Shown: positions 2,454 through 64,000 of the stretch, piece after piece | Layout of the letters: every line of letters starts with the position of its first letter | Position numbering within the stretch: the stretch's first letter is position 1 | Assembly: GCA_016124795.1 (NCBI GenBank) | Contig: WGNB01000003.1 | Span: 1-64,000 of the forward strand | Reading direction: 5' to 3' | Source: Rhodopseudomonas sp. | Lineage (GTDB): Bacteria > Pseudomonadota > Alphaproteobacteria > Rhizobiales > Xanthobacteraceae | Length of the DNA: 64,000 nt | Program-made: the position numbers and the translations under genes | Notes under the pieces: generated by a model | Database searches by the model: none | What the model saw: only the letters and a program-made list of their open reading frames with translations | What the model was told of the DNA's origin: nothing

Positions 2454-4037
<1,584 letters not shown>

Positions 4038-4160: not shown

Positions 4161-4406
4161 ATGATCGCCTCCGCCGCCCCCCCCCAGCCCGTCGTGACGG
4201 GCCCGACGATCGAAACGCCCTGCGTCAAGATTTGCACGCTCGACGCATCGGCCGGGCTGTGCCTGGGCTGCGGCCGCAATCTCGACGAAATCGCGCGCTG
4301 GAGCCGCATGACCCCGGCCGAACGCCGCGGCGTGATCGATCAACTGGAAGCGCGGCTGGCCGCGCTCCGCGGCCCGTCGGGCGCGACGGCCAACCTGCCG
4401 GGATGA
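4161..4406 (+). CDS. DUF1289 small cysteine-rich protein
   Basis: An 81-residue protein started at the ATG at 4161, the only one that gives the usual length for the family. It contains the DUF1289 signature CVKICTLD..GLCLGCGRNLDEIARW, with four Cys residues in a C-x4-C-x8-C-x2-C pattern likely to bind a metal, followed by M-T-P-A-E-R-R. The function of the family is not established. Here it lies between the kinase and an aspartic protease; the protease gene starts 5 nt after its stop, so the two are probably co-transcribed and possibly translationally coupled. Confidence 0.85.
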   Translation: MIASAAPPQPVVTGPTIETPCVKICTLDASAGLCLGCGRNLDEIARWSRMTPAERRGVIDQLEARLAALRGPSGATANLPG

Positions 4407-4410
4407 TGTC

Positions 4411-5112: not shown

Positions 5113-5269
5113 CGCGGCGCCACGTCGTCATGCGACCGCCAGCAGGCGCGCCGCCATTGCATCATTCGCGTTGTTAATCTCGATTATCAATCCTGTATGC
5201 GCGCCACAAAATTAACCGAATCCGCCGACGCTTCGATCTTTATCGATTGGGACTGCGCGGAATTTCGGA

Positions 5270-7408: not shown

Positions 7409-7416
7409 CGGCGCGG

Positions 7417-8412: not shown

Positions 8413-8490
8413 TGCTCTCTCCTGTTAGGGCTGAAGGGTCATAAGGTGGCGTCGGGGTCGCATCATGTCGTTTCTGGTCGTGTCGTTATC

Positions 8491-8509
8491 GCCGCGCCGG
8501 CGGCGCGGC
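8491..8509. other. GC-rich hairpin after the metallo-hydrolase stop
   Basis: GCCGCGC and GCGCGGC form a short, very GC-rich hairpin just downstream of the stop at 8517. The minus-strand continuation has no U-tract, so it is not a convincing intrinsic terminator; it may protect the 3' end of the message or simply separate the two genes. Confidence 0.3.
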
Positions 8510-8516
8510 GCTCGCT

Positions 8517-10541: not shown

Positions 10542-11349
10542 AGCGCACCGACACCATCAGCAGAAAACAGCCGAAGGCGATTTCAAGGGTGCGGCGCGGC
10601 AGCCAGTGCGCCAGCCGCGCGCCATATGGCGCGGTGAAGCTCGACACCGGCGCCATCAGCACAAAGCCGATCACCGAGATATAACCGAGCGACAGCGGCG
10701 GCAGTTCGTTCATGTGCGGCCAGCCGGCCACCACATAACCGAGGGCGCCGACGATGGTGATCGGCACGCCGATGCCGGCCGAGGTCGCGACCGCGCGCTG
10801 CATCGGCTGGCCGTACATCGTCAGGATCGCGTTGGCGACCGCGCCGCCGCTGGTGCCGACCAGCGACGACACCAGACCGACCAGAAAGCCGTAGAACGAC
10901 AGCAGCGCCCGGCCCGGCAAGGTTTCGCTCAGGTTCCAGCGGTCGCCGGCAAACAACATCTTCATACTGATGAAGCCGGTGAACAGCACGAAGGCGATCT
11001 TGAACACCGCGCTCGGCGCGAAGGAGGCAATCGTCGAACCCACGATAACGCCGAGCACCGCCGGCACCACCCAGGCCCGGATCACCTGCGGCAGCGCCGC
11101 GCCTTTCTTCTTGTGGGTGATGTAGGACCGCAGCGTCGTCGGCACGATGATCGCAAGCGACGTGCCGATGCAGAGCTGCACGCGCAGCGCATCGGTGACA
11201 TGCAGCACGCCGAACACTTCATACAGCACCGGCACGATGATGCCGCCGCCGCCGATGCCGAACAGGCCCGCGAGAATGCCGGTGACGACGCCGCCGGCCA
11301 GAATCAAGGCCACCAGCCAGGCCAGTTCGTCGATCGGATAACCCAGCAT
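10522..11349 (-). CDS. TSUP (TauE/SafE) family membrane exporter
   Basis: A 275-residue membrane protein. I start it at ATG 11349, because the sequence from there is the usual family start leading into the first helix, and the longer upstream frame crosses into the dusA region. About eight hydrophobic segments are visible, with the two internal repeats marked by GLFGIGGGGIIVPVL and SSLVGTSGGAVANAIL, the diagnostic Gly-rich half-motifs. The family moves sulfite, sulfoacetate or other small organosulfur anions across the inner membrane. The substrate here cannot be read. The 3' end overlaps the convergent LysR gene by 20 nt. Confidence 0.88.
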   Translation of the reverse strand: MLGYPIDELAWLVALILAGGVVTGILAGLFGIGGGGIIVPVLYEVFGVLHVTDALRVQLCIGTSLAIIVPTTLRSYITHKKKGAALPQVIRAWVVPAVLGVIVGSTIASFAPSAVFKIAFVLFTGFISMKMLFAGDRWNLSETLPGRALLSFYGFLVGLVSSLVGTSGGAVANAILTMYGQPMQRAVATSAGIGVPITIVGALGYVVAGWPHMNELPPLSLGYISVIGFVLMAPVSSFTAPYGARLAHWLPRRTLEIAFGCFLLMVSVRFIATLV

Positions 11350-11483
11350 GCATCGCCCCGTGTCGAAAAAGTCAGGGGCGATGTGCGCCGAAACGGCGCG
11401 ACTGTCCAGAACGCCGGCCAGCGCATCAGCCATGACGCACGCGCCGGGGCCGGCGCAAGGGCCGTCACAGCCGGATGGCGCGC

Positions 11484-12488
11484 TTAGGCCGCGACCGCCG
11501 CCGGATCGGCGTCGCCCTCGCCGACCATGGCCAGCGCGTCGACGAACACCTGCGCCGTCGCGCCCGGCTTGACCGCCTCGGTCGACAGGTGACGGCGAAA
11601 GGCGCGCGCGCCCGGCACCGCGCGAAACAACCCGAGCACATGGCGGGTGATCGACGACAGCCGCGCGCCCTTGGCCAGTTCGTTTTCGATGTAAGGCAGC
11701 AACGCCAGACCCGCCGCCTTGGCCGAGACTTGCGGCGCGGCCTCGCCGTAAAACAGCGGATCGACACCGAGCAGAAGCCACGGCTCCTGATAGGCGGCCC
11801 GCCCCATCATGATGCCATCGAGCGCGCCGAGATGACGCTGCGCGTCGTCAAGCGTGGCGATGCCGCCATTGAGCACGATCGGCAGATCGGGATGCGCGGC
11901 TTTCAGCCGGTGCACGATACCGTAATCGAGCGGCGGCACTTCGCGGTTCTCTTTCGGCGACAGGCCTTTCAGCCAGGCCTTGCGGGCGTGCACGATCAAG
12001 GCATCGACGCCGGCCGCTTTGACGGTATCGGCGAAAGCGAACAGGACTTCTTCCGGGTTCTGCTCGTCGACGCCGATCCGGCATTTGACCGTAACCGGAA
12101 TCCTGACCGCCGCTTTCATGGCCGCCACGCATTGCCCGACCAGTTCCGGTTCCAGCATCAGGCAGGCGCCAAAACGGCCGTTCTGCACCCGGTCGGACGG
12201 ACAGCCGACATTCAGGTTGATCTCGTCATAGCCGAGCCCCTCGCCGATCCGCGCGCATTCGGCCAGGTCGGCGGGCTCGCTGCCGCCCAGTTGCAGCGCC
12301 ACCGGATGTTCGGCGGCGTCGAAGCCGAGCAGCCGGCCGCGATCGCCGTGCAGAATCGCGCCGGTCGTTACCATCTCGGTATACAGCAGCGTCCGGCGCG
12401 TCAGGCCGCGATGGAAAAACCGGCAATGCCGGTCGGTCCAATCCATCATCGGGGCGATACTGAAGCGTCTTTGCAGCATATTGGACAT
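11484..12488 (-). CDS. dusA: tRNA-dihydrouridine synthase A
   Basis: A 334-residue flavoenzyme that reduces U20/U20a in the D-loop of tRNAs using NADPH. The TIM-barrel N-terminal part is very close to DusA: RRFSIAPMMDWTDRH at the start, TEMVTTGAILHG, and the catalytic C96 in NLNVGCPSDRV. K-C-R-I-G-V-D, HARKAWLKGLSPKENR and NGGI follow for FMN and substrate. The start at 12488 gives the normal DusA N-terminus; another ATG lies 3 codons downstream, and neither has a strong ribosome site. It is a housekeeping gene between accessory operons and shares no obvious operon. Confidence 0.95.
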   Translation of the reverse strand: MSNMLQRRFSIAPMMDWTDRHCRFFHRGLTRRTLLYTEMVTTGAILHGDRGRLLGFDAAEHPVALQLGGSEPADLAECARIGEGLGYDEINLNVGCPSDRVQNGRFGACLMLEPELVGQCVAAMKAAVRIPVTVKCRIGVDEQNPEEVLFAFADTVKAAGVDALIVHARKAWLKGLSPKENREVPPLDYGIVHRLKAAHPDLPIVLNGGIATLDDAQRHLGALDGIMMGRAAYQEPWLLLGVDPLFYGEAAPQVSAKAAGLALLPYIENELAKGARLSSITRHVLGLFRAVPGARAFRRHLSTEAVKPGATAQVFVDALAMVGEGDADPAAVAA

Positions 12489-15356: not shown

Positions 15357-17092
15357 CGCTTAACTCCGCCGCGCAGCGTTGTCGTGGCAGGCGCATCGAC
15401 GCTGCCGTCGTCGCGCAGCGCCACGCCGTAATCTCGCCGCGCGGCCTCGCGCGAGACGTAACCGAACTGAAAATCGCGGGCGACGCGCGCCGGATCGCGC
15501 GTCATCGGATCGCCGAAGCCGCCACCGCCCGGCGTTTCCAGGCGGACCCGCTGGCCGCGTCTGATCCGCACGTCGGTGATCTTCGACACCAACGGCGGCG
15601 TACAATCGCCGGCGTCGCCCTGATAGACAAAGCGGTTCAAGGCCGCGCTTTCGCCGCCGTTGACGCCGAAGGGCGGAAACTTGCCGCGCTCGCCGAGCAG
15701 AAAGACATCGGTGTCGCTTTCATTGAGCGCTTCGACCTCATAGATCGCGCCAAGCCCGCCGCGATTGAATCCGGGACCGGCGGAATCGGGCCGCAACGCC
15801 CATTGCGTGAACATCACCGGATAAAGCGACTCCAGAATCTCCGCCGGCGGAATCGTCGCGGTCGAGATCGGGTTGTTGCCGTGGTTGAGGCCATCGCCCT
15901 CCGGGTTGCCGCCGAGGCCGCCGCCGAAGAAACAGAACATCACCCAGCGCTTGCGATCTTGACGCCAACCGGCGAGCGACAGCGCATTAATCGTGGCATA
16001 GGGGCTGCCATTGGCGCGTTCCGGCGCGGCTTTGGCGAAAGCGCCAAACACCGTGTCGATAACGCGCAGGATGGTTTCGGTATAGCCGCCGACCGGCTTT
16101 GGCGCCGAGACGCCGAGCAAGGTCGTATCGGGAATGACGAATTCGATCGGCGCCAGACAACCGGCATTGGCCGGCACGTCGGTGAACAGATGCTTGAGCG
16201 CGACATAGCAGCAGGCCACCGCCGTCGAGCGCGCGATATTGAGCGGCCCCTGACACGGCGGCGCCGAGCGCGAGAAGTCCAGGGTCATCGCGTCGCCCTT
16301 GATCGTCATGTCGAGGGCAATGCGCAGCGGCGTGTCGGTGACGCCGTCATTATCGAGGAAATCGTCATACGAATAGGCGCCGTCTGGCAGCGCGGCGATA
16401 TTGGCGCGCATCAGCGCCTCGGCGCGCGCCGACAACGCATTCATCGCCGCCGAAACCGTGTCGTCGCCATATTCGTCGAGCAAAGCGTGGACACGCTGCT
16501 CGCCGAGGCCCAGCGCATTAAGCTGGCCGTTGAGGTCGCCCCAGTTCGATTGCGGCAGCCGCGAGTTGGCCGCCAGAATGTCGGCGACGTCCTGCTGAAA
16601 AGCGCCGCCGCTGATCAGCTTCACCGGCGGGATGCGAAAGCCTTCCTGAAAGCTTTCGGTCGCCTTGGCGTTGAAATTGCCCGGCACATTGCCGCCGACA
16701 TCGAGCCAGTGACCAACCGAGGCCAGCCAGGCGAACACCTTGCCGTCGCGCATCACCGGCCGCACCAGCCGGAAATCGTTGAGATGGGTGCCGCCATCGT
16801 AGGGGTCGTTGAACAGATAGGTGTCGCCCTCTTTGAGATCGCCGCGCTCGGCAACCTTGTCGATCACCGCCTTGACCGCGAAGGCCATCGCGCCGACGAA
16901 AATCGGCAGGCCGGAGGTGCCCTGCACCAGCGTCGCGCCGGTCTCGGCGTGATAGAGCCCGTGGCAGGCGTCATGCGCCTCGGCGATGATCGGGTTGAAG
17001 GCGGAGCGGAACAAGGTCGCGTCCATCTCATCGGCGATCTGCACCAGGCGGCCGTTGAGCACGGCCAAAGTGACCGGATCGAGCGCGCGCAT
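15353..17092 (-). CDS. Hydantoinase/oxoprolinase B-type subunit (HyuB family)
   Basis: A 579-residue partner of the HyuA-type protein. Landmarks are MDATLFRSAFNPIIAEAHD near the N-terminus, DPYDGGTHLNDFRLVRPV, GNVPGNFNAKATESFQEG, SAPPCQGPLNI and the late Gly-rich ETPGGGGFGDP motif. Length and motifs fit the B subunit that binds the cyclic substrate in a metal-dependent way. It is co-transcribed between the lyase gene (1-nt overlap at 17092) and hyuA (4-nt overlap). With HyuA it should form a cytoplasmic heteromer acting on a substrate imported by the adjacent Liv-type transporter. Confidence 0.93.
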   Translation of the reverse strand: MRALDPVTLAVLNGRLVQIADEMDATLFRSAFNPIIAEAHDACHGLYHAETGATLVQGTSGLPIFVGAMAFAVKAVIDKVAERGDLKEGDTYLFNDPYDGGTHLNDFRLVRPVMRDGKVFAWLASVGHWLDVGGNVPGNFNAKATESFQEGFRIPPVKLISGGAFQQDVADILAANSRLPQSNWGDLNGQLNALGLGEQRVHALLDEYGDDTVSAAMNALSARAEALMRANIAALPDGAYSYDDFLDNDGVTDTPLRIALDMTIKGDAMTLDFSRSAPPCQGPLNIARSTAVACCYVALKHLFTDVPANAGCLAPIEFVIPDTTLLGVSAPKPVGGYTETILRVIDTVFGAFAKAAPERANGSPYATINALSLAGWRQDRKRWVMFCFFGGGLGGNPEGDGLNHGNNPISTATIPPAEILESLYPVMFTQWALRPDSAGPGFNRGGLGAIYEVEALNESDTDVFLLGERGKFPPFGVNGGESAALNRFVYQGDAGDCTPPLVSKITDVRIRRGQRVRLETPGGGGFGDPMTRDPARVARDFQFGYVSREAARRDYGVALRDDGSVDAPATTTLRGGVKR

Positions 17093-17994
17093 CAGCGTTC
17101 ACCCGGCTTGACGGCGGGTTGCGGTTCGAAGCCGGCATAGCGCTTGCCGCGCGCCAGCATGTCCGGCGTCCCGATCAGGCGATTGAGCGCGTCGAAATCG
17201 AACATGCGCGACCGGAACGGATCGGTCGTGCCGTTCTCCTTGAGCGTCCCGTAGAAATCCTGCGCCGCCTTGGCCAAGGCCCGCACGATGCCGCCGGGGA
17301 AAATGACGAAAGAAAAGCCCAGAGCCTCCAGCTCGGGCGCCGTCATCATCGGCGTCTTGCCGCCCTCGACCATGTTGGCCATCAGCGGCAAAGATTTGCC
17401 AAGCGCCGCGGTGACGCGACCCAGTTCGTCGCGTTGCCGCGGCGCTTCGACGAACAGCATGTCGGCGCCGGCTTCTCGGTACAGCGCGGTGCGCGCAATG
17501 GCGGCTTCGAAGCCTTCGACCGCGACGGCGTCGGTGCGGGCGATGATCAGCGTCTCGGCCGAACGGCGGGCATCGATCGCCGCCTTGATCTTGCCCGCCA
17601 TCTCCGGCGCCGGGATCAGCGCCTTGTCATCGAGGTGACCGCAGCGCTTGGGGAAATCCTGGTCCTCGAGCTGAATGGCATTGGCGCCGGCGCGCTCAAG
17701 CAGATGCACCGTGCGCTCGACGTTGAGCGCGTTGCCGTAGCCGGTATCGGCATCGACCACCAGATAGCTGCCCACCCGTTCGCGAATGAGCGCGACGGTA
17801 TCGACCACTTCGCTCAGACTGACGAGCCCGATGTCGGGCCGGCCGAGCCGCGCATAGGCGATCGCCGCGCCGGACACGTAAAGCGCCTCGAAACCGGCTT
17901 GCTCGGCGATCAGCGCGGTCAACGGATCGTACACGCCCGGCGCGATCAGGATCGGCGGACGCGCAAGCCGCGTGCGGAGTGTCTGTTCAGTCAT
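17092..17994 (-). CDS. Isocitrate lyase/PEP mutase superfamily lyase
   Basis: A 300-residue TIM-barrel enzyme. VDADTGYGN (80-88) supplies the Mg-binding Asp residues, QLEDQDFPKRCGHL (108-121) supplies E110/D111 and the gating loop with Cys118, and R-T-D-A follows. The K-R-C-G-H loop with its Cys marks C-C bond lyases (2-methylisocitrate lyase, 2,3-dimethylmalate lyase, isocitrate lyase) and is not found in PEP mutase or phosphonopyruvate hydrolase. The expected reaction is cleavage of a 2-hydroxy-3-alkyl-dicarboxylate to a 2-oxo acid plus a shorter acid. It sits between the transporter genes and hyuBA and, with the leuCD-type hydratase opposite, could complete a maleate-type pathway. Confidence 0.9.
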   Translation of the reverse strand: MTEQTLRTRLARPPILIAPGVYDPLTALIAEQAGFEALYVSGAAIAYARLGRPDIGLVSLSEVVDTVALIRERVGSYLVVDADTGYGNALNVERTVHLLERAGANAIQLEDQDFPKRCGHLDDKALIPAPEMAGKIKAAIDARRSAETLIIARTDAVAVEGFEAAIARTALYREAGADMLFVEAPRQRDELGRVTAALGKSLPLMANMVEGGKTPMMTAPELEALGFSFVIFPGGIVRALAKAAQDFYGTLKENGTTDPFRSRMFDFDALNRLIGTPDMLARGKRYAGFEPQPAVKPGER

Positions 17995-18014
17995 TCATCG
18001 TATTCCCAAGTGAT

Positions 18015-18731
18015 TCACATGCCCAGGTAAGCACGCTTCAACGCCGGGTCGGCGGCGATGTCGGCGGCAGCGCCGGACATCACAAACTTTCCGTCGGCAA
18101 GGATATAAGCCCGATTGGCGATTTCGAGGCTCTGCACCACGTTCTGCTCGACGAGCAGAACGGCCATGCCCTCGCCGTTGATCCGCGCGATCAGCGCGAA
18201 CAATTCCTCGACCAGCAAAGGCGACAGGCCCAACGACGGCTCGTCGAGAATGATGAGCTTCGGCTCCGCCATCAGGCCGCGGCCGATGGCCAGCATCTGT
18301 TGTTCGCCGCCCGACAAAGTGCCGGCGCGTTGCGACCGGCGTTCGAACAGGCGCGGAAAGGTCGAAAAAATCCGGTCCCGGTTGGCCGCGCGCCGGGCGG
18401 TGGCGCGGCGGTAACTGCCGAGATCGAGGTTTTCGCTGACCGTCATGTTCGGAAAGATGCGGCGGCCCTCGGGCACGTGGATCAATCCGCGCGCGACGAT
18501 CGCGGACGGCTTTTCGTTCTCGACGGCATCGCCATCGAATTGGATCGTTCCGGCCCGCGCCCGCACGATCCCGGACATCGCGCGGTTGAGCGTCGACTTG
18601 CCAACGCCATTCGAACCCAGCACGGCGACTATTTCGCCGGGGCTAACGGTCAAATCGATGCCTTGCAAGACTTCAGTCTCGCCATAGCCGGCGCGCAGGC
18701 CGCGGATGTCGAGAAGCGCGCTAGTGCTCAT
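18015..18731 (-). CDS. Branched-chain-type ABC transporter ATPase, LivF-like
   Basis: A 238-residue ATP-binding subunit started at ATG 18729-18731, which overlaps the end of the LivG-type gene by 11 nt. Walker A is G-S-N-G-V-G-K-S-T (39-47), the signature is LSGGEQQ, and Walker B is LIILDEPSLGLSP. VPEGRRIFPNMTV and the C-terminal A-Y-L-G are typical of LivF. With the LivG-type subunit it drives import through the LivHM-type permease in the same operon. The substrate is likely the cyclic amide or acid degraded by the downstream enzymes rather than an amino acid. Confidence 0.93.
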   Translation of the reverse strand: MSTSALLDIRGLRAGYGETEVLQGIDLTVSPGEIVAVLGSNGVGKSTLNRAMSGIVRARAGTIQFDGDAVENEKPSAIVARGLIHVPEGRRIFPNMTVSENLDLGSYRRATARRAANRDRIFSTFPRLFERRSQRAGTLSGGEQQMLAIGRGLMAEPKLIILDEPSLGLSPLLVEELFALIARINGEGMAVLLVEQNVVQSLEIANRAYILADGKFVMSGAAADIAADPALKRAYLGM

Positions 18732-53811: not shown

Positions 53812-53970
53812 TCCCGCCACGGCCCGAATGCATCGCCATCACGAACGGCGGTTCGTCCGATAACTTTTCGCTATCGCTCGGCGCTTTCTGCCATCTTCTC
53901 GGGAAACCTCGAATGCGCAATGGAAAGGACGACCATAACAAAAATCGCGCATTCGCCTCGGGAGGCACCC

Positions 53971-54549
53971 ATGAGCACTATCAAGCCCGCGCTACATCAC
54001 GTCACCATCAAGACCACCCGCATCGACGAGATGATCGCGTGGTACGGCCTCGTGATCGGCGCGCAGGTCCAGTTCCGCGACTCCGGCGCGGCCTGGACCA
54101 CCAACGATGCCGCCAATCACCGCGTCGCCTTTCTGACCGTCCCCAAATTGTCGGACGATCCGGACAAAACCGCCCATAACGGCGTGCACCACTTCGCCTT
54201 CGAATACGACAGCTTCGACGACCTGATGTCGTCCTATGATCGGATGCGGCAGTCCCATGTCGAGCCGGCCTTCTGCCTCGACCACGGCCTGACCATCTCG
54301 CTTTATTACAAGGACCCGGAAGGCAACTACATCGAACTGCAAAGCGACAATTTCTCGGATTGGCAAAAATCCGGTGAGTTCATGCGGACCTCGCCGGATT
54401 TCGCCGCCAACCCGATCGGGACCTTCTTCGATCCGGCGCGGGTTTACGAAGCCTTCAAGACTGGTATTGCATTCGCCAACCTGCAAAAGGAAATCCGCGC
54501 CGGCGCCTATCTGCCCGCGACGATCCCGAATATCGGCCTGCCGATCTGA
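53971..54549 (+). CDS. VOC (glyoxalase/extradiol dioxygenase-fold) protein
   Basis: A 192-residue metalloprotein started at ATG 53971 with GGGAGG upstream. Metal ligands fit H10 (LHHVTIKT), the second His of G-V-H-H-F-A-F-E-Y, and the Glu of NYIELQSDNF. It has the length of a single VOC module plus a C-terminal tail, so it may work as a dimer. The wording near Y-K-D-P-E-G-N-Y-I-E-L-Q resembles type I extradiol dioxygenases and glyoxalases alike. Next to a phenol-type FAD hydroxylase, a ring-cleaving role is attractive but not shown. Confidence 0.85.
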   Translation: MSTIKPALHHVTIKTTRIDEMIAWYGLVIGAQVQFRDSGAAWTTNDAANHRVAFLTVPKLSDDPDKTAHNGVHHFAFEYDSFDDLMSSYDRMRQSHVEPAFCLDHGLTISLYYKDPEGNYIELQSDNFSDWQKSGEFMRTSPDFAANPIGTFFDPARVYEAFKTGIAFANLQKEIRAGAYLPATIPNIGLPI

Positions 54550-54600
54550 ACGAACGTTCTACGACGACCGCGCACCCGTTCATTTCCGACAGGCCGTTTC

Positions 54601-56274
54601 ATGACTGCCGACGATACAGCATTCGACGTCATCATCGTGGGGGCCGGTCCGGTCGGCCTGTCCGCCGCGATCGAACTCGGCCGCCGCGACATCCGCTGTC
54701 TGGTCATCGAGCGCAACGATCGCGTCGGCTATAGTCCGCGCGCGAAGACGACGAATGTCCGCACCCGCGAACATCTGCGGCGCTGGGGCATCGCCGATGC
54801 CTTGCGCAAGGCCTCGCCGATTTCGCCGGATCGCCCGGCAACCGTTCTGTTCGCAACACGGATGAACGGCCATCTGCTGGCCCGTTTCGACAATGCGATG
54901 AACGGCAGCCGAGTTCGCAACAACCTCTATTCCGAGGAAGCGCAATGGGTGCCGCAATACATACTTGAGGACGTGTTGCGCCAATGCGCTCAAGCACTGC
55001 CTTGCGTAACAATCCAGTTCAACGCCGAATTTACCTCGGTCGACGACGACGGCGACAAGGTGACCGTCGCGATCCGCGACCTCACCGGCGGCGCGGAACG
55101 CACAGTCACCGCGCACTATCTGATCGGTACCGACGGCGCGCGCAGCACGGTTCGCGACGCCATCGGGGCGACGATGACCGGCCAGGGCGCCTACTCGCAG
55201 AATTACAGCGTCATCTTCCGCGCGCCCGACCTGGAACGCCGCCAGGTTCACGAACAGGCGCTGATGTACTGGATGGTCAATCATGACGTACCGTCCCTGC
55301 TCGGCCCGATGGACGAAAGCGGCCTCTGGTTCTTCATGGCGACCAAGCTCGCCGGCGATGTCGACCCTGCGACCATCGATCCCGCCGAATTGATCCGGCG
55401 CGGCACCGGCCTGACCGATCTCGCTATCGAGATTGTCGGCACCGACCCCTGGGTCGCCCACCGTCTGGTCGCCGACCGCTATGCGAAAGGCCGCGTCTTT
55501 CTCGCCGGCGATGCCTGCCATTTACATCCGCCGTTCGGCGGCTTCGGCATGAACATGGGAATCGGCGACGCCGTCGATCTCGGCTGGAAGATGGCGGCGC
55601 GTCTGACCGGCTGGGGTGGCGTCAATCTGCTGGAGTCCTACGAACAGGAACGCCGCAAGGTGCATATCCGCACCATCGCCGAGGCGGTGGCGAATTTCGA
55701 ATCGACCTCCAATCAACTGGTTCAGCCGGCGCTCGAAGATCCCGGCCCGATCGGCGAAGCCACCAGGCGTGAAGTCGCCGAAATCATCCTCGCGACCAAG
55801 GTCCGCGAATTCAGGACATTGGGCATTGTGCTTGGCATGCGCTACGAGGGATCGCCGATCGTGGTCGCCGATGGCAGCGCGCCGCCGAAAGACCATTTCA
55901 TGCTCTATCTGCCGTCGGCGCATCCAGGATGCCTGGCGCCTCATCTGTGGCTGCACGACGGCTCGTCGCTTTACGATCATTTCGGCGATGGCTTCACCTT
56001 GCTGATGACCGAGGGCAAGGCGAGTGACGCCGATGCCTTCCAAGCCGCGGCTAAGGCACAAGCCTTGCCGCTGACCTTCCTGACGCTTCCCGACACCCGG
56101 TTGCGCGGCCGTTATGGCGCGCGCTTTGCCCTGATCCGCCCGGACCAGCATGTCGCCTGGCGCGGCGACCTGTTGCCCGACGATGCCGCAACTCTGATCG
56201 CGACCGTGATCGGCGCAAGGACTTTGCCGGCCCCGGCCCCCGCCGAGAAATCACGCGCCGCCGAGACGGCATGA
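54601..56274 (+). CDS. FAD-dependent aromatic hydroxylase, MhpA-like
   Basis: A 557-residue class A flavoprotein monooxygenase. It has GAGPVGLSAAIELGRRDI (14-31) and I-G-T-D-G-A-R-S-T-V-R-D-A-I-G. The second FAD motif FLAGDACHLHPPFGGFGMNMG has a Cys in place of the usual Ala (D-A-C-H for D-A-A-H). The C-terminal 150 residues form the thioredoxin-like domain typical of phenol and 3-hydroxyphenylpropionate hydroxylases. The expected reaction is NAD(P)H-dependent ortho-hydroxylation of a phenolic acid. It lies 51 nt after the VOC gene and 59 nt before the GST gene, probably one operon. Confidence 0.9.
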   Translation: MTADDTAFDVIIVGAGPVGLSAAIELGRRDIRCLVIERNDRVGYSPRAKTTNVRTREHLRRWGIADALRKASPISPDRPATVLFATRMNGHLLARFDNAMNGSRVRNNLYSEEAQWVPQYILEDVLRQCAQALPCVTIQFNAEFTSVDDDGDKVTVAIRDLTGGAERTVTAHYLIGTDGARSTVRDAIGATMTGQGAYSQNYSVIFRAPDLERRQVHEQALMYWMVNHDVPSLLGPMDESGLWFFMATKLAGDVDPATIDPAELIRRGTGLTDLAIEIVGTDPWVAHRLVADRYAKGRVFLAGDACHLHPPFGGFGMNMGIGDAVDLGWKMAARLTGWGGVNLLESYEQERRKVHIRTIAEAVANFESTSNQLVQPALEDPGPIGEATRREVAEIILATKVREFRTLGIVLGMRYEGSPIVVADGSAPPKDHFMLYLPSAHPGCLAPHLWLHDGSSLYDHFGDGFTLLMTEGKASDADAFQAAAKAQALPLTFLTLPDTRLRGRYGARFALIRPDQHVAWRGDLLPDDAATLIATVIGARTLPAPAPAEKSRAAETA

Positions 56275-56333
56275 GTGTGCCGAGACCGGCCAACCCAGGG
56301 CGCTGCCACGCCAGCACGGACAAGGAGCAACCG

Positions 56334-57167
56334 ATGATCAAATTCTACCAGTTCGGCAATTCGGTGTGCTGTCAGAAAGCCCGCATCACCATGAGCGAGA
56401 AAGGCCTCCAGTGGGAGCCGATCGAGGTCAATCTATTTCGCAACGAGCAATATGCGCCGGACTATCTCAAGATCAATCCCAAGGGCGTGGTCCCGGCGAT
56501 GATCCATGACGGCCGGGCCATCATCGAATCGACGCTGATCTGCGAATATCTCGACGACGTCTATCCCAACCCGCTTCTGATCCCGAAAGACCCCTATCTG
56601 CGCAGCCAGATGCGGCTCTGGAGCAAACTGGTCGACGAAGGGCTGCACGAAGGCATCAGCGAAATCAGCTTCTCCGCGATGTTCCGCGAACGCTTGCGAA
56701 ACTCGACACCGGAAGAACGTGAGGTCCGGTTCCGCAATATCGGCGATCCGCGCCGCCGCGACCGGTTCAAATCAACCTACGAGCTCGGCACCCAATCGCC
56801 CTTCGTGCTCTATGCCGTCGCCAATTACTACAAAGCCTTCAAGGCAATGGAAAAAGCGCTGGACGGGCACGGGCCCTGGCTGCTCGGCGACAGCCTGTCG
56901 CTCGCCGATATCAACATGATGCCCTATGTCGCGCGATTACATTATCTCGGCCTGCTCGATGTCTGGACCGCCGACCGACCGGCGGTGCAAACATGGTGGC
57001 GACGCACCCAGGCGCTGCCAAGCTTCATCGCCGGCCTCGTCACGCCAATGAAGCCGCAGGAGGTCGAGGAAATGGCCAAACATGGCCCCGGAATCCGCGG
57101 CGAATTGCAGGAATTGGTCGCCCAGGTCGCGGCGGCGCAAGCACAGTTTCAGCCAGTGGCGGCGTAA
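56334..57167 (+). CDS. Glutathione S-transferase family protein with CC motif
   Basis: A 277-residue GST started at ATG 56334 (AAGGAG upstream). The N-terminal thioredoxin fold has C12-C13 (GNSVCCQKARI), a possible Cys-type active site as in dehalogenating or glutathionyl-lyase classes, followed by K-G-V-V-P-A-M and I-I-E-S-T-L-I for glutathione. The C-terminal helical domain is longer than usual and has GDSLSLADINMMPYV. In an aromatic-degradation operon it could isomerise a maleyl- ring-cleavage product or remove a substituent. It is cytoplasmic. Confidence 0.87.
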   Translation: MIKFYQFGNSVCCQKARITMSEKGLQWEPIEVNLFRNEQYAPDYLKINPKGVVPAMIHDGRAIIESTLICEYLDDVYPNPLLIPKDPYLRSQMRLWSKLVDEGLHEGISEISFSAMFRERLRNSTPEEREVRFRNIGDPRRRDRFKSTYELGTQSPFVLYAVANYYKAFKAMEKALDGHGPWLLGDSLSLADINMMPYVARLHYLGLLDVWTADRPAVQTWWRRTQALPSFIAGLVTPMKPQEVEEMAKHGPGIRGELQELVAQVAAAQAQFQPVAA

Positions 57168-57294
57168 GCGGCACCGTTAGCGCCACCGTTAACGCCATTG
57201 AGCGCTGTTAAGCACCCAGCGCAGTTGAACGACCGTAACGCGGTCCAGTGATTGATCGCCGAGCCGAAACACCGATCCCAAGGAGCGCGTCGCT

Positions 57295-57726
57295 ATGGCA
57301 ACACCGAACCATCCCGGGCCGGATTGGCACGCGGCTTGCGCGCAAGTCGCGATCGATTTCGCGGTCGCCATCGACCATGGCGATGTCGATGCGGTTCTGG
57401 CGCTATTCACCGAGGATGGCTGTCTGATCAGGCCCGACGAGGTGTCGAGCGGGCAAGCCGAGTTGCGCCGTTGGCTGGTCGACGAAAGGCCGGCGCAGGT
57501 CATTCGCCACGTCTGTTCGAATTTCTCGGCCCGTCAAATCGCGGCGGATCGCGTGGAGGGCAAAACCTATTTCACCGCCTATCGCGCGATGGGCGCCCCC
57601 ACCCGACCGGTGTCCGATAACGTCGCGATTCTGGTCGGTGAATGGGACGACGTATTTCAGAACACCGCCGCGGGTTGGCGCATTAAGAGCCGTACGGTGA
57701 CACTGGTGTTTCAAATCGCCGGGTGA
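57295..57726 (+). CDS. SnoaL-like/NTF2-fold small protein
   Basis: A 143-residue protein with the cone-shaped NTF2/SnoaL fold as judged by pattern: an N-terminal helix (A-A-C-A-Q-V-A-I-D-F-A-V-A-I-D-H-G-D-V-D), L-F-T-E-D-G-C-L and a C-terminal W-R-I-K-S-R-T-V. Members include ketosteroid-isomerase-like enzymes and small subunits of ring-hydroxylating dioxygenases; the catalytic residues cannot be assigned here. It follows the GST gene by 127 nt and is the last gene of the group. Confidence 0.8.
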   Translation: MATPNHPGPDWHAACAQVAIDFAVAIDHGDVDAVLALFTEDGCLIRPDEVSSGQAELRRWLVDERPAQVIRHVCSNFSARQIAADRVEGKTYFTAYRAMGAPTRPVSDNVAILVGEWDDVFQNTAAGWRIKSRTVTLVFQIAG

Positions 57727-58141: not shown

Positions 58142-58966
58142 ATGACCGGTCCGCTACTAACCTTGACAACCTTGAATGCGGATTGGGCCAACCCGCCGCT
58201 CGACCGCGCGTCGCCGCTGCCGCTCTACGCCCAGATCAAACAGCGGCTGATCGCTTTGATCCTGCGATGGGATCAGCCCGAGCAGCGGTTTTATTCCGAC
58301 GAACAATTATGCGCGTTTTTCTGCGTCAGCCGCGACACTGTGCGCCAGGCATTGTCGGAACTGGTACGTGAAGGACTGCTCACGCGAAGCCGCGGCCTCG
58401 GGACCTTTGTGTCGGTCCGTAAGCTGGAAGAGCACTTCGAACCCGGCATGGATTTCATGCGGCAATGGGAGGCGAACGGCACGCCGATCCAGTCGACACT
58501 GCTCGCCTTCGAACGCCGCGCCGCCGACGAACAAATCGCCAAGACGCTTGGATTGGAGACCGGCGCTCTCGTGCTCTTCATCAAACGGACGCGGTCCGCC
58601 GCCCGCGTGCCGGTCGCCATAGACTATCGTTATCTGCCGGCCGAACTGGTAGCCGACTGGGATGAAGAGGCCGCGGCCGGGTCGCCGCTGCATCTGCTGT
58701 GGCAAAGCGTCAAATTGCAAAGCGGCAACTTCGCCATCGAAGCCGGCGTCGCCGGCCCCGAAGAAGTTGAATACCTGCATTTGAGCCCTGGCGCGCCGGT
58801 TCTGATCCGCACCTTGCAATATAGCGACGCGCATGGCCGGCAGGTCATGGCCGGTCACACCGTCCATCGCGCCGATCTCGTTCGCTACTCCCTGACCGTG
58901 CCGCTGTCGCGCCCCACCGCTACGGGCGCCGGCGCCAATCACAGCGGCGGGGTCCATGACGACTGA
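58142..58966 (+). CDS. GntR-family regulator with UTRA domain, cluster 3
   Basis: A 274-residue regulator. The winged helix is at about 25-95 (PLPLYAQIKQRLIALIL.., then Y-S-D-E-Q-L-C-A-F-F-C-V-S-R-D-T-V-R-Q-A-L). The UTRA domain spans about 115-255, with P-V-A-I-D-Y-R-Y-L-P and M-A-G-H-T-V-H-R-A-D-L-V-R-Y. It differs from the other two GntR proteins in linker and effector pocket. It is the first gene of the operon that continues with a LivK-type protein after 72 nt and most likely controls that operon. Confidence 0.88.
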   Translation: MTGPLLTLTTLNADWANPPLDRASPLPLYAQIKQRLIALILRWDQPEQRFYSDEQLCAFFCVSRDTVRQALSELVREGLLTRSRGLGTFVSVRKLEEHFEPGMDFMRQWEANGTPIQSTLLAFERRAADEQIAKTLGLETGALVLFIKRTRSAARVPVAIDYRYLPAELVADWDEEAAAGSPLHLLWQSVKLQSGNFAIEAGVAGPEEVEYLHLSPGAPVLIRTLQYSDAHGRQVMAGHTVHRADLVRYSLTVPLSRPTATGAGANHSGGVHDD

Positions 58967-59038: not shown

Positions 59039-60208
59039 GTGAAGTTCGACAGACGCAGTTTCCTACAACTCATCCCGGGTGCGGCTCTCACGGCGACCGG
59101 CGTGCAAACAAGCTGGGCGGCCGGAGAACCGTTGCGCGTCGGCTCGATCCTGTCGGTCACCGGCCCGGCCGCCTTTCTCGGCGAAGACATGAAGGCCGGT
59201 CTGCAACTGGCCGTCGATGAAATCAACGCTTCCGGCGGCATCAATGGCCGCAAGATCGCCTGGACCTTCTACGATGCCGAAAGCCAGACCCAGAAAGCGC
59301 TGTCGGCGACCCGCCGCCTGATCAGCCAGGACAAGGTCGAACTGATCGTCAGCGGCGGCAACATGAGCGGCATCGCGCTGGCGATGGCGCCGATGGCTGA
59401 AGCGGCCAAGATCCCGTTCATCTCGAGCGAAGGCGCGCTCGCCATCGTCACCCCGGTCGCCGACCGCAAGTGGGTGTTCAAGAGCACCGTCGACGACGAA
59501 GACGTGCTCGAGCGCATCGCCGACTATTGCGAAAAGAAGAAAATCAAGAAAGTCGCCCTGCTCGCCGACAGCAGCGGCTTTGGCCAAGGCGCGACCACCC
59601 AGATGAAGAAGGTCGGGCCGCGCCGCAAGCTCGACGTCATGTACGAGACCTTCGGCCCGGCCGACACCGACATGATGCCGCAACTAACCCGTATCCGCGA
59701 CAGCGGCGCCGAAGCCATCATTTGCTGGACCGTTACCCCGGCCGGCGTCATCTTCATCAAACAGGCTCAACAGCTCGGCCTCGACAAGCGCACGCTGATT
59801 CACAGTTACGGCTTCGTTTCGGCGCACTACATGACCCTGGCCGGCAACGCCGCCAGTTCGATCCTGCTCGCCAGCCTGAAACTGCCGGTTGGCGACCAAT
59901 TGCCCGATCGCGATCCGCTCAAGGCCGGCATTCTCAAGCTGTTCAAGGACTATCAGGCCCGGTTCAATCGCCCGGCCAGCCTCTATGCCGCCGAATCCTA
60001 TGACGCGGCGATGCTCGCGAAAGAGGCGCTCACCAAAGTCGGCGGCGATGTCAGCAAACTCCCGCAGGGACTTGAGCAGGTGAAGAACTTCGCCGGTAAG
60101 AGCGGCGTGTTCAACTTCTCACCGGAGCGCCATTCCGGTCTCTCCAAGAAGGACATCGTCCTGGTCAATTGGAAAGACAAGCGCTTCAACCTCGTCGATT
60201 ACGACTGA
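59039..60208 (+). CDS. ABC transporter substrate-binding protein, LivK type
   Basis: A 389-residue Peripla_BP_6 protein started at GTG 59039 (GGAGGGG upstream). The signal is short and Tat-like (K-F-D-R-R-S-F-L-Q-L, cleavage near A28). The mature start LRVGSILSVTGPAAFLGEDM and the L-A-V-D-E-I-N-A-S-G-G-I-N-G-R-K segment are typical. ALLADSSGFGQGATTQMKK lines the second lobe. It should feed the LivHM-type permease encoded three genes downstream. The two diiron genes are inserted between binding protein and permease, which is unusual and suggests they act on the imported ligand. Confidence 0.92.
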   Translation: MKFDRRSFLQLIPGAALTATGVQTSWAAGEPLRVGSILSVTGPAAFLGEDMKAGLQLAVDEINASGGINGRKIAWTFYDAESQTQKALSATRRLISQDKVELIVSGGNMSGIALAMAPMAEAAKIPFISSEGALAIVTPVADRKWVFKSTVDDEDVLERIADYCEKKKIKKVALLADSSGFGQGATTQMKKVGPRRKLDVMYETFGPADTDMMPQLTRIRDSGAEAIICWTVTPAGVIFIKQAQQLGLDKRTLIHSYGFVSAHYMTLAGNAASSILLASLKLPVGDQLPDRDPLKAGILKLFKDYQARFNRPASLYAAESYDAAMLAKEALTKVGGDVSKLPQGLEQVKNFAGKSGVFNFSPERHSGLSKKDIVLVNWKDKRFNLVDYD

Positions 60209-60237
60209 TCGGCACTCATCGCCCGGAGGATAAAGCC

Positions 60238-61191
60238 ATGGCTCTCTCTCGTGATATGTCGCCCGAACAGGCTTTCGAGGTGCTGCAAACGCTCCTCGAC
60301 GAACCTGAAAACCGCTTCCCGCTCACCTTCAATTCCGATCTGCCGCGGATTCGCGAGCTGTTTCATGCCGCGACCCGCAACCAGTGGGATCCGAAGACCG
60401 ACGTTGACTGGGATCAGCTCAAACCGGAGGCTTACACGGAAGAGCAGCGCTACGCCGCCAGGCTTTATTGGAGCCGGCGGGCCTGGAGCGAATATGGGGC
60501 GATCTCCGAAAGCCCCTCGCTCCAGCTCCGCTTCGGCATCGAACAGCGGCCCTCGGACATGCAGCTCTTCTTCACGATTCGATCCCAGGAAGAAGCGCGG
60601 CATGCCGAGGTCTGCCAGACCATGGCCGAAAAGCTCGGCGGCTACATTGAAAAGCCGGTCCAGCAACTGTTCGAAGGCTCGGTCGCGACGCACGGTGTGC
60701 GCCGCGCCACCCTCAATGCCGACATTCCGCTCGAGGGTATCATCGCGGCGCTGGTCTGCACCGCCGAGGAAATCGCCTTCGACGTCTTCAAGCATCTCGA
60801 CGAGGTGACCACCGATCCGGTCGCCAAACAGATCGTGCGCTTCATCATGCGCGATGAGTCGCGCCACTGCGCCTTCGGCTGGTATTTCCTCGAAGCGATC
60901 TGCGATACGCTGACGCCGGAGCAGAAGAAGATGATCGAAGACTCGGTCATCACCATGGTCGAGAAGGTGGAACTCAACGGCTATCACAGCGCATGGCTGG
61001 CGCCGGAAAATCCGGCCTCGTTGTCCGAAGTCGAGGCCGACCGCGTCACCTACGAAGCCGGACTGGGCTCGACCGTCGAGGAGGCCGAGAAGCCAGTCTT
61101 CATCGCCACCCTGCAACGCATCCGCGACCAGATGAAGCCGCTCGGCATCAACCTTCCGCCCTTCAGCCATCCGAAACTCGGAACCATCTGA
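60238..61191 (+). CDS. Ferritin-like diiron protein (probable oxygenase), paralog 1
   Basis: A 317-residue all-helical protein started at ATG 60238 (CGGAGGA upstream). Two E-x-x-H motifs are visible, E119-A-R-H122 and E207-S-R-H210, with E91 and E177/E178 as the probable remaining carboxylates. That is a full ligand set for a carboxylate-bridged diiron site of the ferritin-like/AurF/R2-like superfamily. W-S-R-R-A-W, D-E-S-R-H-C-A-F-G-W and G-Y-H-S-A-W-L-A-P-E are shared with the following paralog. No signal peptide. The likely chemistry is O2-dependent oxidation, for example N-oxygenation or hydroxylation of the imported compound. The family and substrate are not recognised. Confidence 0.8.
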   Translation: MALSRDMSPEQAFEVLQTLLDEPENRFPLTFNSDLPRIRELFHAATRNQWDPKTDVDWDQLKPEAYTEEQRYAARLYWSRRAWSEYGAISESPSLQLRFGIEQRPSDMQLFFTIRSQEEARHAEVCQTMAEKLGGYIEKPVQQLFEGSVATHGVRRATLNADIPLEGIIAALVCTAEEIAFDVFKHLDEVTTDPVAKQIVRFIMRDESRHCAFGWYFLEAICDTLTPEQKKMIEDSVITMVEKVELNGYHSAWLAPENPASLSEVEADRVTYEAGLGSTVEEAEKPVFIATLQRIRDQMKPLGINLPPFSHPKLGTI

Positions 61192-61192
61192 T

Positions 61193-62128
61193 ATGCAAAC
61201 CGCGGTCCAGCACCCCACCCCGACCCTGCCGCCGTTGAAGCTTCTGGTCGAGAGGCGGTTTCCGCTTGAAATGAAAATCACCCTGCCGGAGATCCGCGCG
61301 CTCTATGACGACGGCAAGGCGGGACGCTGGAATCCGCACAAGGACATCGACTGGGCGGCGCTGAAGCCGGAAGCCTACGATGCCGCGCAACTCGCCGCCG
61401 CGCGCCGGACCTGGAGCCGGCGCGCCTGGATCGCGGCCACCGGCCTGACCGAGACGCCGGCCTTGCTGATGCGCTTCTGCATGGAGATCGATCGTGAGAT
61501 CGATTCCAAATTCTATCTCACGGTCCGCAACACCGAAGAAGCCTGGCATGTCGAATGCTGCGCCAAGCTCGCGGACCTCTTCGGCGGCCGGATCGCGGCG
61601 CCAGTCGACCGCGGCTATGAGGCCGCCTTCAACCGCCATCTGCACCGGCGGGTGATGGATGCAACCCAGAACCTCGACAGCTATGTCGCCTGCTTCGCTG
61701 CCTTCGAAGACGGCCTGGAGCTGGAACTACTCCGCACCTGGCGCGCCCTCACCACTAATGTCACCGTCAACGCCGTGCTCGACCATCTGATCGCCGACAA
61801 GGAGCGTCACGCTGCCTTCGGCTGGCTCTATCTCGCCGCCCGGGCGCCGCAGTGGACGGCCCGCGAACGCAGCCTGATCGCCGAAGAACTGGCGTCTTAT
61901 ATCCGCGACACCGAACTCAAGGGCTATCATTGCCCCTGGCTGGCGCCGGAACACGCCGCCGCCGAAGCCGAGGCCGACACTATCACCGCCACCGCCGGGC
62001 TCGGCGCCGCCAGCCGTACCGCGGAAGAAGACACGCTGGTCGCCTATGTCGCCAATGCGCGTCAGAAGCTTGCCGAGTTCGGCGTCGTGCTGCCGATGTT
62101 CGACTCCAACCGGATGCGGAGCTTCTGA
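61193..62128 (+). CDS. Ferritin-like protein, paralog 2 with altered second E-x-x-H
   Basis: A 311-residue paralog of the preceding protein, its ATG 1 nt after that stop. The first motif is kept (E116-A-W-H119) and so is E87. In the second, D202-K203-E204-R205-H206 aligns with D-E-S-R-H of paralog 1, putting Lys at the Glu ligand position; the nucleotides (GAC AAG GAG CGT CAC) leave no doubt. The fourth-helix acidic region also differs (F-E-D-G-L-E-L-E-L). The protein may therefore bind metal differently or serve as a non-catalytic partner, as the beta subunits of bacterial multicomponent monooxygenases do. Shared W-S-R-R-A-W and A-F-G-W confirm common descent. Confidence 0.78.
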   Translation: MQTAVQHPTPTLPPLKLLVERRFPLEMKITLPEIRALYDDGKAGRWNPHKDIDWAALKPEAYDAAQLAAARRTWSRRAWIAATGLTETPALLMRFCMEIDREIDSKFYLTVRNTEEAWHVECCAKLADLFGGRIAAPVDRGYEAAFNRHLHRRVMDATQNLDSYVACFAAFEDGLELELLRTWRALTTNVTVNAVLDHLIADKERHAAFGWLYLAARAPQWTARERSLIAEELASYIRDTELKGYHCPWLAPEHAAAEAEADTITATAGLGAASRTAEEDTLVAYVANARQKLAEFGVVLPMFDSNRMRSF

Positions 62129-62133: not shown

Positions 62134-63015
62134 ATGCACGCCGGTTCCGCCATCCTGCAATTGCTCGTCGCCGGTATCGGCACCGGCAGCATCTACGCCC
62201 TGATCGCGCTCGGCTTCAACGTCGTGTTCAAAAGCACCGGCGCGATGAACTTCGCGCAAGGCGAATGGGTGGTGATGGGCGGCATGATCTCCGCCTTACT
62301 GTTCGCCTCGACCCACAATATCGGACTGGCCTGCATCGCGGCGGTCGTCATCGTCAGCGTCATCGGCATTCTATCGGAACGCCTCGTGGTCTGGCCGCTG
62401 CGCCGGCCCAATGCCCTCCTGATCACGCTCGTCAGCATCGGCCTGGCGATATGCTCGCGCAGTCTGGTGATGATGATCCTCGGCAAGAAGCCGGTCGGCT
62501 ACCCCGGCTTCTCCGAAGCCTCGACCTTGTTCGTCGGCGGCATCGCCATTCAGACCCAGACTCTCTGGATCGTCGGCCTGACCCTGGTCTTCCTGCTCGC
62601 CATGCATCTCTTCTTCGAGCATACCATTATGGGCAAGGCGCTGCGCGCGGCGGCCGCCGACCGCGACGCCGCCGCGATCGTGGGCGTCCGGGTCGAGACC
62701 ACCGTCATGCTGTCCTTCGCCATCGCCGCCTTCGGCGGCGCGCTCGCCGGCGCATTAATCACGCCCTTGACGCTATCGTCCTACGATCAAGGCGCGCTGT
62801 TCGGCTTCAAGGGCTTCAGCGCGGCGATGCTCGGCGGCATCGGCAGCCTGCCCGGCGCCATCGTTGGCGGTCTGGCGCTCGGCCTGCTCGAAGCTTTCGG
62901 CAGTTTCTATATTTCGTCGGATTTCAAGGACGCTATCGCGTTTGCTGTACTGCTCGCCATCCTGTTCGCGCGGCCCGCGGGGCTGCTCGGACGGGCCGAC
63001 GTGGTCAAGGTCTGA
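62134..63015 (+). CDS. Branched-chain-type ABC transporter permease, LivH-like
   Basis: A 293-residue permease started at ATG 62134, 5 nt after the diiron gene; the longer open frame upstream is a shadow. G-T-G-S-I-Y-A-L-I-A-L-G-F-N-V-V-F-K-S is the LivH start, then M-N-F-A-Q-G-E-W-V. The coupling loop R-A-A-A-A-D-R-D-A-A-A-I-V-G and GGIGSLPGAIVGG follow. About eight hydrophobic segments. Confidence 0.92.
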   Translation: MHAGSAILQLLVAGIGTGSIYALIALGFNVVFKSTGAMNFAQGEWVVMGGMISALLFASTHNIGLACIAAVVIVSVIGILSERLVVWPLRRPNALLITLVSIGLAICSRSLVMMILGKKPVGYPGFSEASTLFVGGIAIQTQTLWIVGLTLVFLLAMHLFFEHTIMGKALRAAAADRDAAAIVGVRVETTVMLSFAIAAFGGALAGALITPLTLSSYDQGALFGFKGFSAAMLGGIGSLPGAIVGGLALGLLEAFGSFYISSDFKDAIAFAVLLAILFARPAGLLGRADVVKV

Positions 63016-63019: not shown

Positions 63020-64000
63020 ATGACCATGGCCCCCGCCAAAGCCGCTCCGCCACCGGTATCGACCAGCCCGTCGCAGATTGTCGGCGCGCCATCCGCTACA
63101 TCGCCCGCCAGCCATCCCGTCCGACGCCGTGGCGTGTCCGACCGCATGCGGCTGCTGCTGCTGTGGCTGCTGATGCTGCTCGTGCCCTATGTTGCACCGA
63201 ATTCCTACGTCATTTCGCTCGGCAACCTGTTCCTGATCAATGTCATCCTGATCGCCAGCCTCAACCTGCTGATGGGCTATGGCGGGCAGATTTCGCTCGG
63301 CCACGCCGGCTTCTTCGGCTTCGGCGCTTATGTCAGCGGCATCCTCGACGTCAAACTGGGCATCATGCCGTGGATCGGGCTGCCGACCGCGGCGGTGCTG
63401 ACCGGCCTGTCGGCACTGATCATCGGCATCCCGGCGCTGCGGCTGCGGGGCCATTACCTGTCGATGGCGACGCTCGGCTGGAACGCGATCCTGCTGGTGA
63501 TGTTCAATCGCCTGATCGACCTTACCGGAGGTCCGAACGGCCTGCTCGGCGTGCATCCGTTTTCCATCGGCAGCTTGGCGCTCGACACCGATATACGCCA
63601 ATTCCCGCTGGTGTGGCTGGTGTCGCTGCTGGTGATGATCGCCATTCTGCATCTGCTGCAATCCCGAGTCGGACGCGCGCTGCGCGCCGTCGCCACCAAC
63701 GAAATCGGCGCCGATGCCGTCGGCATCGACAGCTTTCGCACCAAATTGCTGTTCTTCGTGCTGACCGCCGGCATGGCCGGCATTGCCGGCAGCCTCTACG
63801 TCCACGTCAACCAATACGCCTCGCCGGAAACGTTCGGCGTCAACGGCTCGATCCTGCTGGTGGTCATGGTCGCGCTCGGCGGCAGCGGCACTTATTGGGG
63901 CCCGGTGATCGGCGCGCTGATCTATACCGCAGTGCCGCAACTATTGCTCGACTATGAAGACGCCGAACTGATGCTGTTCGGCCTCGGCATGCTGATCGTG
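63020..64000 (+). CDS. Branched-chain-type ABC transporter permease, LivM-like (cut by window end)
   Basis: An open frame runs from ATG 63020 to the last base without a stop (327 codons seen). The first ~40 residues are a Pro/Ser/Ala-rich cytoplasmic tail, longer than usual. After this come L-N-L-L-M-G-Y-G-G-Q-I-S-L-G-H-A-G-F-F-G-F-G-A-Y, A-L-R-L-R-G-H-Y-L-S-M-A-T-L-G, R-A-V-A-T-N-E-I-G-A-D-A-V-G-I-D, and GGSGTYWGPVIGA, all LivM marks. The ATPase genes (LivG/LivF type) are expected just beyond the window. Confidence 0.9.
   Translation, partial: MTMAPAKAAPPPVSTSPSQIVGAPSATSPASHPVRRRGVSDRMRLLLLWLLMLLVPYVAPNSYVISLGNLFLINVILIASLNLLMGYGGQISLGHAGFFGFGAYVSGILDVKLGIMPWIGLPTAAVLTGLSALIIGIPALRLRGHYLSMATLGWNAILLVMFNRLIDLTGGPNGLLGVHPFSIGSLALDTDIRQFPLVWLVSLLVMIAILHLLQSRVGRALRAVATNEIGADAVGIDSFRTKLLFFVLTAGMAGIAGSLYVHVNQYASPETFGVNGSILLVVMVALGGSGTYWGPVIGALIYTAVPQLLLDYEDAELMLFGLGMLIV

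Follow-up and report, generated by a model that had tools for sequence, protein, structure and literature searches.

A tandem ferritin-like pair with a fixed glutamate-to-lysine exchange, proposed as a heteromeric diiron oxygenase, in an importer operon of Rhodopseudomonas

A 64,000-nucleotide stretch of Rhodopseudomonas sp. DNA, analysed as a whole (contig WGNB01000003.1, positions 1 to 64,000; hereafter the window), contains two adjacent forward-strand genes for ferritin-like paralogs, here called P1 (60238..61191, 317 amino acids) and P2 (61193..62128, 311 amino acids). We propose that the two proteins probably form a heteromeric oxygenase and represent a separate family, in which P1 would be the catalytic diiron subunit and P2 a metal-poor partner subunit. 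The genes lie one base apart, between those of a Peripla_BP_6 binding protein and a LivH-type permease, and would be co-transcribed; the start of P1 is the ATG at 60238 and not a TTG further upstream in the same open frame. A first-pass annotation of the window had described tandem diiron paralogs, one with a broken metal motif, and the residues it quoted are exact in the translations: E119-x-x-H122 and E207-x-x-H210 in P1, and E116-x-x-H119 in P2, with lysine in place of the second glutamate (K203-x-x-H206). At 34% identity over 292 residues (E 1e-55), P1 and P2 are true paralogs, as had been supposed.

Residues at the metal site were tallied over 24 P1 and 22 P2 proteins from 22 loci in alpha- and betaproteobacteria, including the window (as L027). 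All six places that would hold the P1 ligands (E85, E119, H122, E177, E207 and H210) are invariant in 24/24 proteins, so giving the ferritin-like diiron pattern E, ExxH, E, ExxH throughout P1, whereas every P2 lacks the helix-4 glutamate of this pattern: the place is Glu in 24/24 P1 and Lys in 22/22 P2, and L004 and L076, two pairs beyond the tally, likewise have E in P1 and K in P2. Being fixed on both sides, the exchange is not a matter of chance. Only three alignment columns are invariant within each group and different between them, namely S92/T88, F112/L109 and E207/K203. Ten single-copy relatives (L007, L008, L014, L016, L017, L018, L021, L024, L054 and L055) all have glutamate at the helix-4 place, as do five more (L058-L061 and L077), and lysine occurs in none of them. 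To judge from the alignments, the helix-1 and helix-3 ligands of P1, to which the first-pass annotation had put no names, are most likely E85 and E177; E177 was chosen because P1 and all ten single-copy relatives have a glutamate exactly 30 residues ahead of the helix-4 glutamate, and E85 aligns with what we take to be the helix-1 ligand of R2lox (HMMER alignment to 7qbk). Two other candidates, E178 and E91, were dropped after comparison with these relatives and with R2lox.

Structure prediction places the lysine accordingly. Single-chain models of P1 (predicted local distance difference test, pLDDT, 87.2; predicted template modelling score, pTM, 0.84) and of P2 (pLDDT 91.3, pTM 0.89) have corresponding helices, H106-132, H165-190 and H194-224 in P1 matching H103-129, H161-186 and H190-220 in P2, so that Lys203 is predicted to lie on the same helix as Glu207 and in its register. 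For both models the nearest solved structures in Foldseek are R2lox and the R2 protein of class I ribonucleotide reductase (RNR), with a best E of 3.1e-6 for P1 and 1.7e-4 for P2; identity to most of the listed R2lox matches is 12-18% in the structure comparison. A profile search, of the sort that the first-pass annotation had proposed, gave AurF (PF11583) as the best Pfam family of P1, by a narrow, local match over residues 115-239 (30.9 bits, gathering score 29.6). P1 falls below the cut-offs of the NCBIfam R2lox models (best 23.9 bits, cut-off 194) and of the PaaA model TIGR02156 (17 bits, cut-off 280), and phenol and methane hydroxylase families are absent among its seven Pfam matches at E 0.1. 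For P2, neither Pfam nor NCBIfam gives a match at that threshold, PF11583 included. No P1 match was found in phages.

At its remaining ligand places P2 varies. The helix-1 place is Glu in 20 of the 22 proteins, Ala in the window (Ala81) and Gly in L052; on helix 2, Glu116 is invariant and His119 is retained in 15, with Gln in six and Leu in one; on helix 3, 20 have Asp (D173 in the window), one has Ala and one Leu, the reading for L052 and L013 depending on the alignment; and His206 is kept in 21, with one Asn. The motif is thus broken by a lysine at every locus, as described for the window, while the statement that P2 keeps H119 holds for two thirds of the family only (15/22). Thirteen of the 22 retain the other five ligand places, with Glu-to-Lys and Glu-to-Asp as the only changes. 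Such retention, together with the invariance of E116, the prevalence of the helix-1 Glu and helix-3 Asp (20/22 each) and the purifying selection described below, would suit a view of P2 as a separate enzyme whose metal site, mononuclear or otherwise altered, is formed by the helix-1 Glu, E116 and H119 and which works beside P1 in the same pathway. We consider this unlikely, because such a site is not always kept, His119 being Gln or Leu in 7/22 and the helix-1 Glu being lost in the window and in L052; moreover, the strict pairing and matched divergence of the two proteins better fit a subunit. The same losses, which include the window's own P2, make the different metal chemistry that the first-pass annotation had offered as an alternative less likely. 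With its lysine fixed, its helix-3 acid shortened and its histidine drifting, P2 fits the picture of a site that no longer depends on metal and still requires a buried balance of charge.

A further place was compared in the two proteins. Four residues after H122, P1 has an invariant cysteine (Cys126, window 60613-60615; 24/24), and the P2 residue there is Phe in nine, Cys in seven (the window among them), Tyr in five and Ala in one. We take this place to be that of Tyr122 in R2 and Cys151 in methane monooxygenase, and presumably also that of the radical tyrosine of class Ie RNR R2, which follows the helix-2 His by four residues; the lysine of that protein (R2e) we likewise assume to sit on helix 4, as K203 does. 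With tyrosine at the radical place in only 5/22 P2, it is very improbable that P2 works as class Ie R2 does, metal-free, a lysine occupying the metal site and a modified tyrosine carrying a radical. The likeness is that in P2, too, Lys takes the place of a ligand Glu within an R2-type site: in class Ie R2, as excerpts of the published accounts describe it, three metal glutamates are replaced, one of them by lysine, and the protein is active without metal, acting through a dihydroxyphenylalanine (DOPA) radical with NrdI and R1 (PMC11846895, PMC7615503). Genes for nrdI or nrdE were not recognised among the neighbouring frames that were read, no profile search for them having been made.

The two genes are inherited together. 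A scan with the P1 alignment, using one genome per species, returned 20 loci from Pseudolabrys, Bradyrhizobium, Xanthobacter, Azospirillum, Achromobacter and several metagenome-assembled genomes, and a further pair (L013) comes from a Paraburkholderia plasmid of 1.09 Mb; the two genes adjoin each other in 22/22 loci (20/20 scan loci, L013 and the window). In four genome samples, each of which counts the window's own genome and whose draws partly overlap, pairs occurred in 5 of the 198 family genomes (matches in 7), 3 of the 43 genus genomes (matches in 4), 2 of the 385 class genomes, by a P2 profile search (matches in 6), and 1 of the 398 phylum genomes, where 12 more genomes gave weak matches (13 in all; best E among the 12, 3.9e-9). 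Unpaired matches are distant relatives, and P2 without a neighbouring P1 was not found in any of these samples of 198, 398, 385 and 43 genomes. The first-pass annotation had made its idea of a catalytic and a structural subunit depend on P2 homologs not occurring alone and on K203 lying at the metal site; the idea survives on both counts, on the second as far as helix and register go, and the two proteins would form the complex that it implies.

Divergence of the pair is matched and uneven at once. Across the 22 loci the P1 and P2 identity matrices correlate at r = 0.94 (231 locus pairs), and P2 is the more diverged protein in 230/231 of these pairs. In the full tree P2 forms one side of a branch (96/88) and P1 does not, because two single-copy rows with a branch length of 6.5 fall inside it; when three long single rows are removed, P1 (95/98), P2 (98/82) and the single-copy relatives (98/93) each occupy one side of a branch. 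The ratio of nonsynonymous to synonymous substitution (dN/dS) over eight pairs of loci is 0.011-0.167 for P1 and 0.035-0.221 for P2, higher in P2 in 7/8 and largest for the window against L034; three of the eight pairs share Achromobacter loci, and in the eighth, L044-L045, the P1 copies are not orthologous by the tree. P2 also has an open frame of 290-315 amino acids in each of the 22 loci, with 38 invariant columns over the 22 proteins. It is faster-evolving, yet under purifying selection, and the view of P2 as a decaying duplicate, which its greater divergence might suggest, is in practice refuted by the selection test, the intact frames and the invariant columns; we give it practically no credence. 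That P1 and P2 work as independent homo-oligomers, each with its own step or substrate, and are held together by the operon alone, is quite improbable: both are indeed retained and constrained, and copy number varies in L044 and L045, but P2 was not found alone, though importer, regulator, Rid and even hydrolase matches are missing at some loci.

As a heteromeric oxygenase, the pair would work as follows. By its residues P1 has all that an O2-activating dimetal site requires, and P2 has not; P1 would bind two irons (or Mn/Fe) through its six ligand residues and activate O2. P2 would stem from an old duplication, its working diiron site having been lost as the helix-4 Glu became Lys; the ammonium group of Lys203 probably occupies the metal position and would form salt bridges with the remaining acids, E116 and D173, and P2 would have been retained for what it adds to P1, whose fold, stability or substrate pocket it would complete. 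The Liv-type transporter would import a small organic compound under GntR/UTRA control, P1-P2 would oxygenate it, and an alpha/beta hydrolase (an amidase or creatininase at some loci) would then hydrolyse the oxygenated product.

Several observations weigh against this proposal. The P2 proteins that retain five other ligand places may, to judge by these residues, have bound metal. At L044 (3409-5307) and L045 (2776-4670) a single P2 follows two P1 genes, each of which has the full ligand set, with no ABC (ATP-binding cassette) importer match, so that a 1:1 ratio of the subunits may not hold everywhere; according to the tree, the order of the two P1 types is reversed between these loci. The two very long single-copy rows among P1 in the full tree are a further difficulty, which we judge to be a long-branch artefact. 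Finally, no reductase gene was recognised between the GntR and Rid genes of the window's genome, unlike the situation in Paa and the soluble monooxygenases, and electrons would then come from elsewhere in the cell. At the Xanthobacter locus L031, genes of a 2Fe-2S reductase-like protein (6153-7112), which is the first candidate for supplying P1 with electrons, and of the nitronate-monooxygenase family lie upstream of GntR; in the window's genome, relatives of that reductase sit elsewhere.

Gene order in the window is as the first-pass annotation gave it, all on the forward strand. The cluster begins with a GntR-family regulator with a UTRA ligand-sensing domain (58142..58966; Pfam UTRA 1.7e-26, GntR 6e-12), followed by the Liv-type periplasmic binding protein (59039..60208; Peripla_BP_6, 6.6e-57), whose nearest solved structures have names that indicate no ligand class, then P1, P2, a LivH-type permease (62134..63015) and the 5' part of a LivM-type permease (from about 63020 to 64000) that extends past the window end. 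The LivH-type permease is an open frame whose position is conserved in 16/20 loci; it is named from its sequence, its position and family traits, and LivM, LivG and LivF of this genome are putative assignments. Past the window end, the operon runs through LivM, LivG and LivF to an alpha/beta hydrolase, which has an HGGYW motif, and a Rid-family protein.

Neighbours at the 20 scan loci were counted by tblastn near the pair, with the window's proteins as queries and E up to 1e-8. LivHMGF was found at 16/20, the binding protein at 16/20 (upstream of P1), GntR at 17/20 (upstream), the alpha/beta hydrolase at 19/20 and the Rid gene at 11/20, some absences falling on short contigs (L045, 7 kb; L051, 6 kb). 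The ABC importer is therefore usual and not obligatory, and the steadier core is P1-P2-alpha/beta hydrolase; the placement of the pair inside an importer operon, which the first-pass annotation had stressed, is true of the window and inessential to the family, four of the 20 loci having no LivHMGF match nearby. L013 has no hydrolase match and an amidase after the Rid gene, and at L053 a creatininase-family gene (6700-7584) stands between P2 and LivH. At the same place in L043 a frame (10832-12412) starts alike and then diverges.

Hydrolase, amidase or creatininase genes at these loci suggest hydrolysis of an oxygenated product, the amidase and the creatininase having turned up at a single locus each. 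Against solved structures the hydrolase is closer to a putative esterase (2pbl, E 2e-31) than to kynurenine formamidase (4e11, E 1.6e-18). At the place of the RidA active-site Arg105, located by alignment to 2dyy, the residue is Ser or Ala in 14/14 Rid proteins found (L027 10441-10827 and 13 more, of which that of L033 adjoins a single-copy relative). RidA deamination needs this arginine, according to the part of PMC8113886 that treats it, and since it is absent, the Rid protein is no proof of an enamine step; a Rut-like pathway with enamine deamination by Rid is weakened accordingly.

The importer would fit an aromatic or N-containing nutrient, as would an upstream set of genes (window 53920-57726) with the look of aromatic catabolism. 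This set comprises a VOC/extradiol-like protein, a flavin adenine dinucleotide (FAD) monooxygenase of the PRK06126 subfamily (607 bits, cut-off 445), a GST akin to maleylacetoacetate isomerase and a SnoaL-like protein. Near the pair in Achromobacter L046 are genes for an AMP ligase, an SDR, an acyl-CoA dehydrogenase and a kinase, L050 has an AMP ligase, and L049 resembles L046 by eye. In L046 the AMP ligase and an unassigned 429-amino-acid protein lie upstream and divergent (3736-6699), and the SDR, acyl-CoA dehydrogenase and APH-type kinase downstream (15569-18604); an unassigned upstream protein of L013 (10411-11751) is similar to the 429-amino-acid one in size and orientation. The single-copy relatives L054 and L055 (Variovorax plasmids, 8046-9062 in each) are about 27% identical to P1 and, like the pair, have a Liv-type importer beside them; they differ in having no adjoining paralog in the annotated neighbourhood, with 2Fe-2S/FAD reductase and coenzyme A (CoA)-ester genes next door. 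Both carry the annotation 'hypothetical protein'. A CoA-ester pathway of the Paa or Box type, at which L054, L055, L046 and L050 hint, was not adopted; CoA-ester genes lie near Achromobacter and one more betaproteobacterial locus and were not recognised at the other loci whose flanks were read, no profile search having been made. Another single-copy relative, in L066 (8544-12945), has as its neighbours a GntR/UTRA gene, a Rieske oxygenase of the LigXa type and a 2Fe-2S reductase.

More speculatively, P1-P2 might found a class of its own among heteromeric diiron oxygenases, one whose dead-site subunit is marked by the fixed Glu-to-Lys exchange and which has a dedicated importer and hydrolase; it would open an N-containing or aromatic compound by oxygenation and then by hydrolysis of an amide or ester, as a metal-based counterpart of flavin-dependent ring openers like RutA. 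We hold this wider view only tentatively. If the proposal is right, dead-site partner subunits arose once more among ferritin-like oxygenases. Given the identity of the paralogs, an exchange that is one of only three fixed differences and single-copy relatives with intact sites, the steps would here be traceable, and it would become testable why diiron enzymes retain a metal-free sister subunit. The importer, regulator and hydrolase would in turn offer a direct route to the substrate of a family that has a weak AurF name (P1) or none (P2).

Among known systems, R2lox is the nearest solved fold, and E119xxH122 and E207xxH210 of P1 align with its ExxH motifs; we know of no R2lox with a dead-site partner. 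AurF has an additional His ligand four residues ahead of the helix-4 Glu, a place held in the 24 P1 by Ile (19) or Val (5), and this AurF feature is lacking. No effector (coupling) protein of the multicomponent monooxygenases was recognised in the window's operon, where no profile search was made for one. A 'ferritin-like' protein of Advenella was not adopted as a relative, its authors calling it most likely a bacterioferritin in the portion of text concerned (PMC5373536). A parallel in architecture is phenylacetyl-CoA epoxidase, in which, as excerpted from PMC4498308, a ferritin-like catalytic subunit, PaaA, forms a stable complex with a structural subunit of the same fold, PaaC, iron being found with PaaA; P1-P2 is proposed as a like combination of a catalyst and a metal-poor partner of the same fold. 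PaaA and PaaC are 17% identical in that account, against 34% for P1 and P2, and the Paa complex requires the bridging PaaB and the reductase PaaE (PMC4498308), which were not recognised in the window's genome among the genes assigned between GntR and Rid, no profile of either having been run on the 22 loci. P1 itself is not PaaA, because it scores 17 bits against the cut-off of 280 and a separate PaaA is above that cut-off in 5/6 P1-P2 genomes tested. In yeast, excerpts of PMC2704937 describe Rnr2, a diiron subunit, and Rnr4, a paralog short of iron ligands that stabilises Rnr2 in a heterodimer; unlike P1-P2, that pair makes a tyrosyl radical for ribonucleotide reduction, with no link to transport or catabolism in the text excerpted, and Rnr4 has lost three ligands, where P2 has its helix-4 Glu fixed as Lys. 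No description of the P1-P2 pair or its operon, and nothing of use on the substrate, was found in the open-access full-text literature, which was the scope of the search and excludes subscription papers; the first-pass view that no such system had been described thus holds there for the family, and the architecture has precedents. By analogy, the relation of P1 to P2 probably parallels that of PaaA to PaaC and of Rnr2 to Rnr4: the kind, a live and a dead ferritin-like subunit together, is already known, and what appears to be new is the P1-P2 family with its operon.

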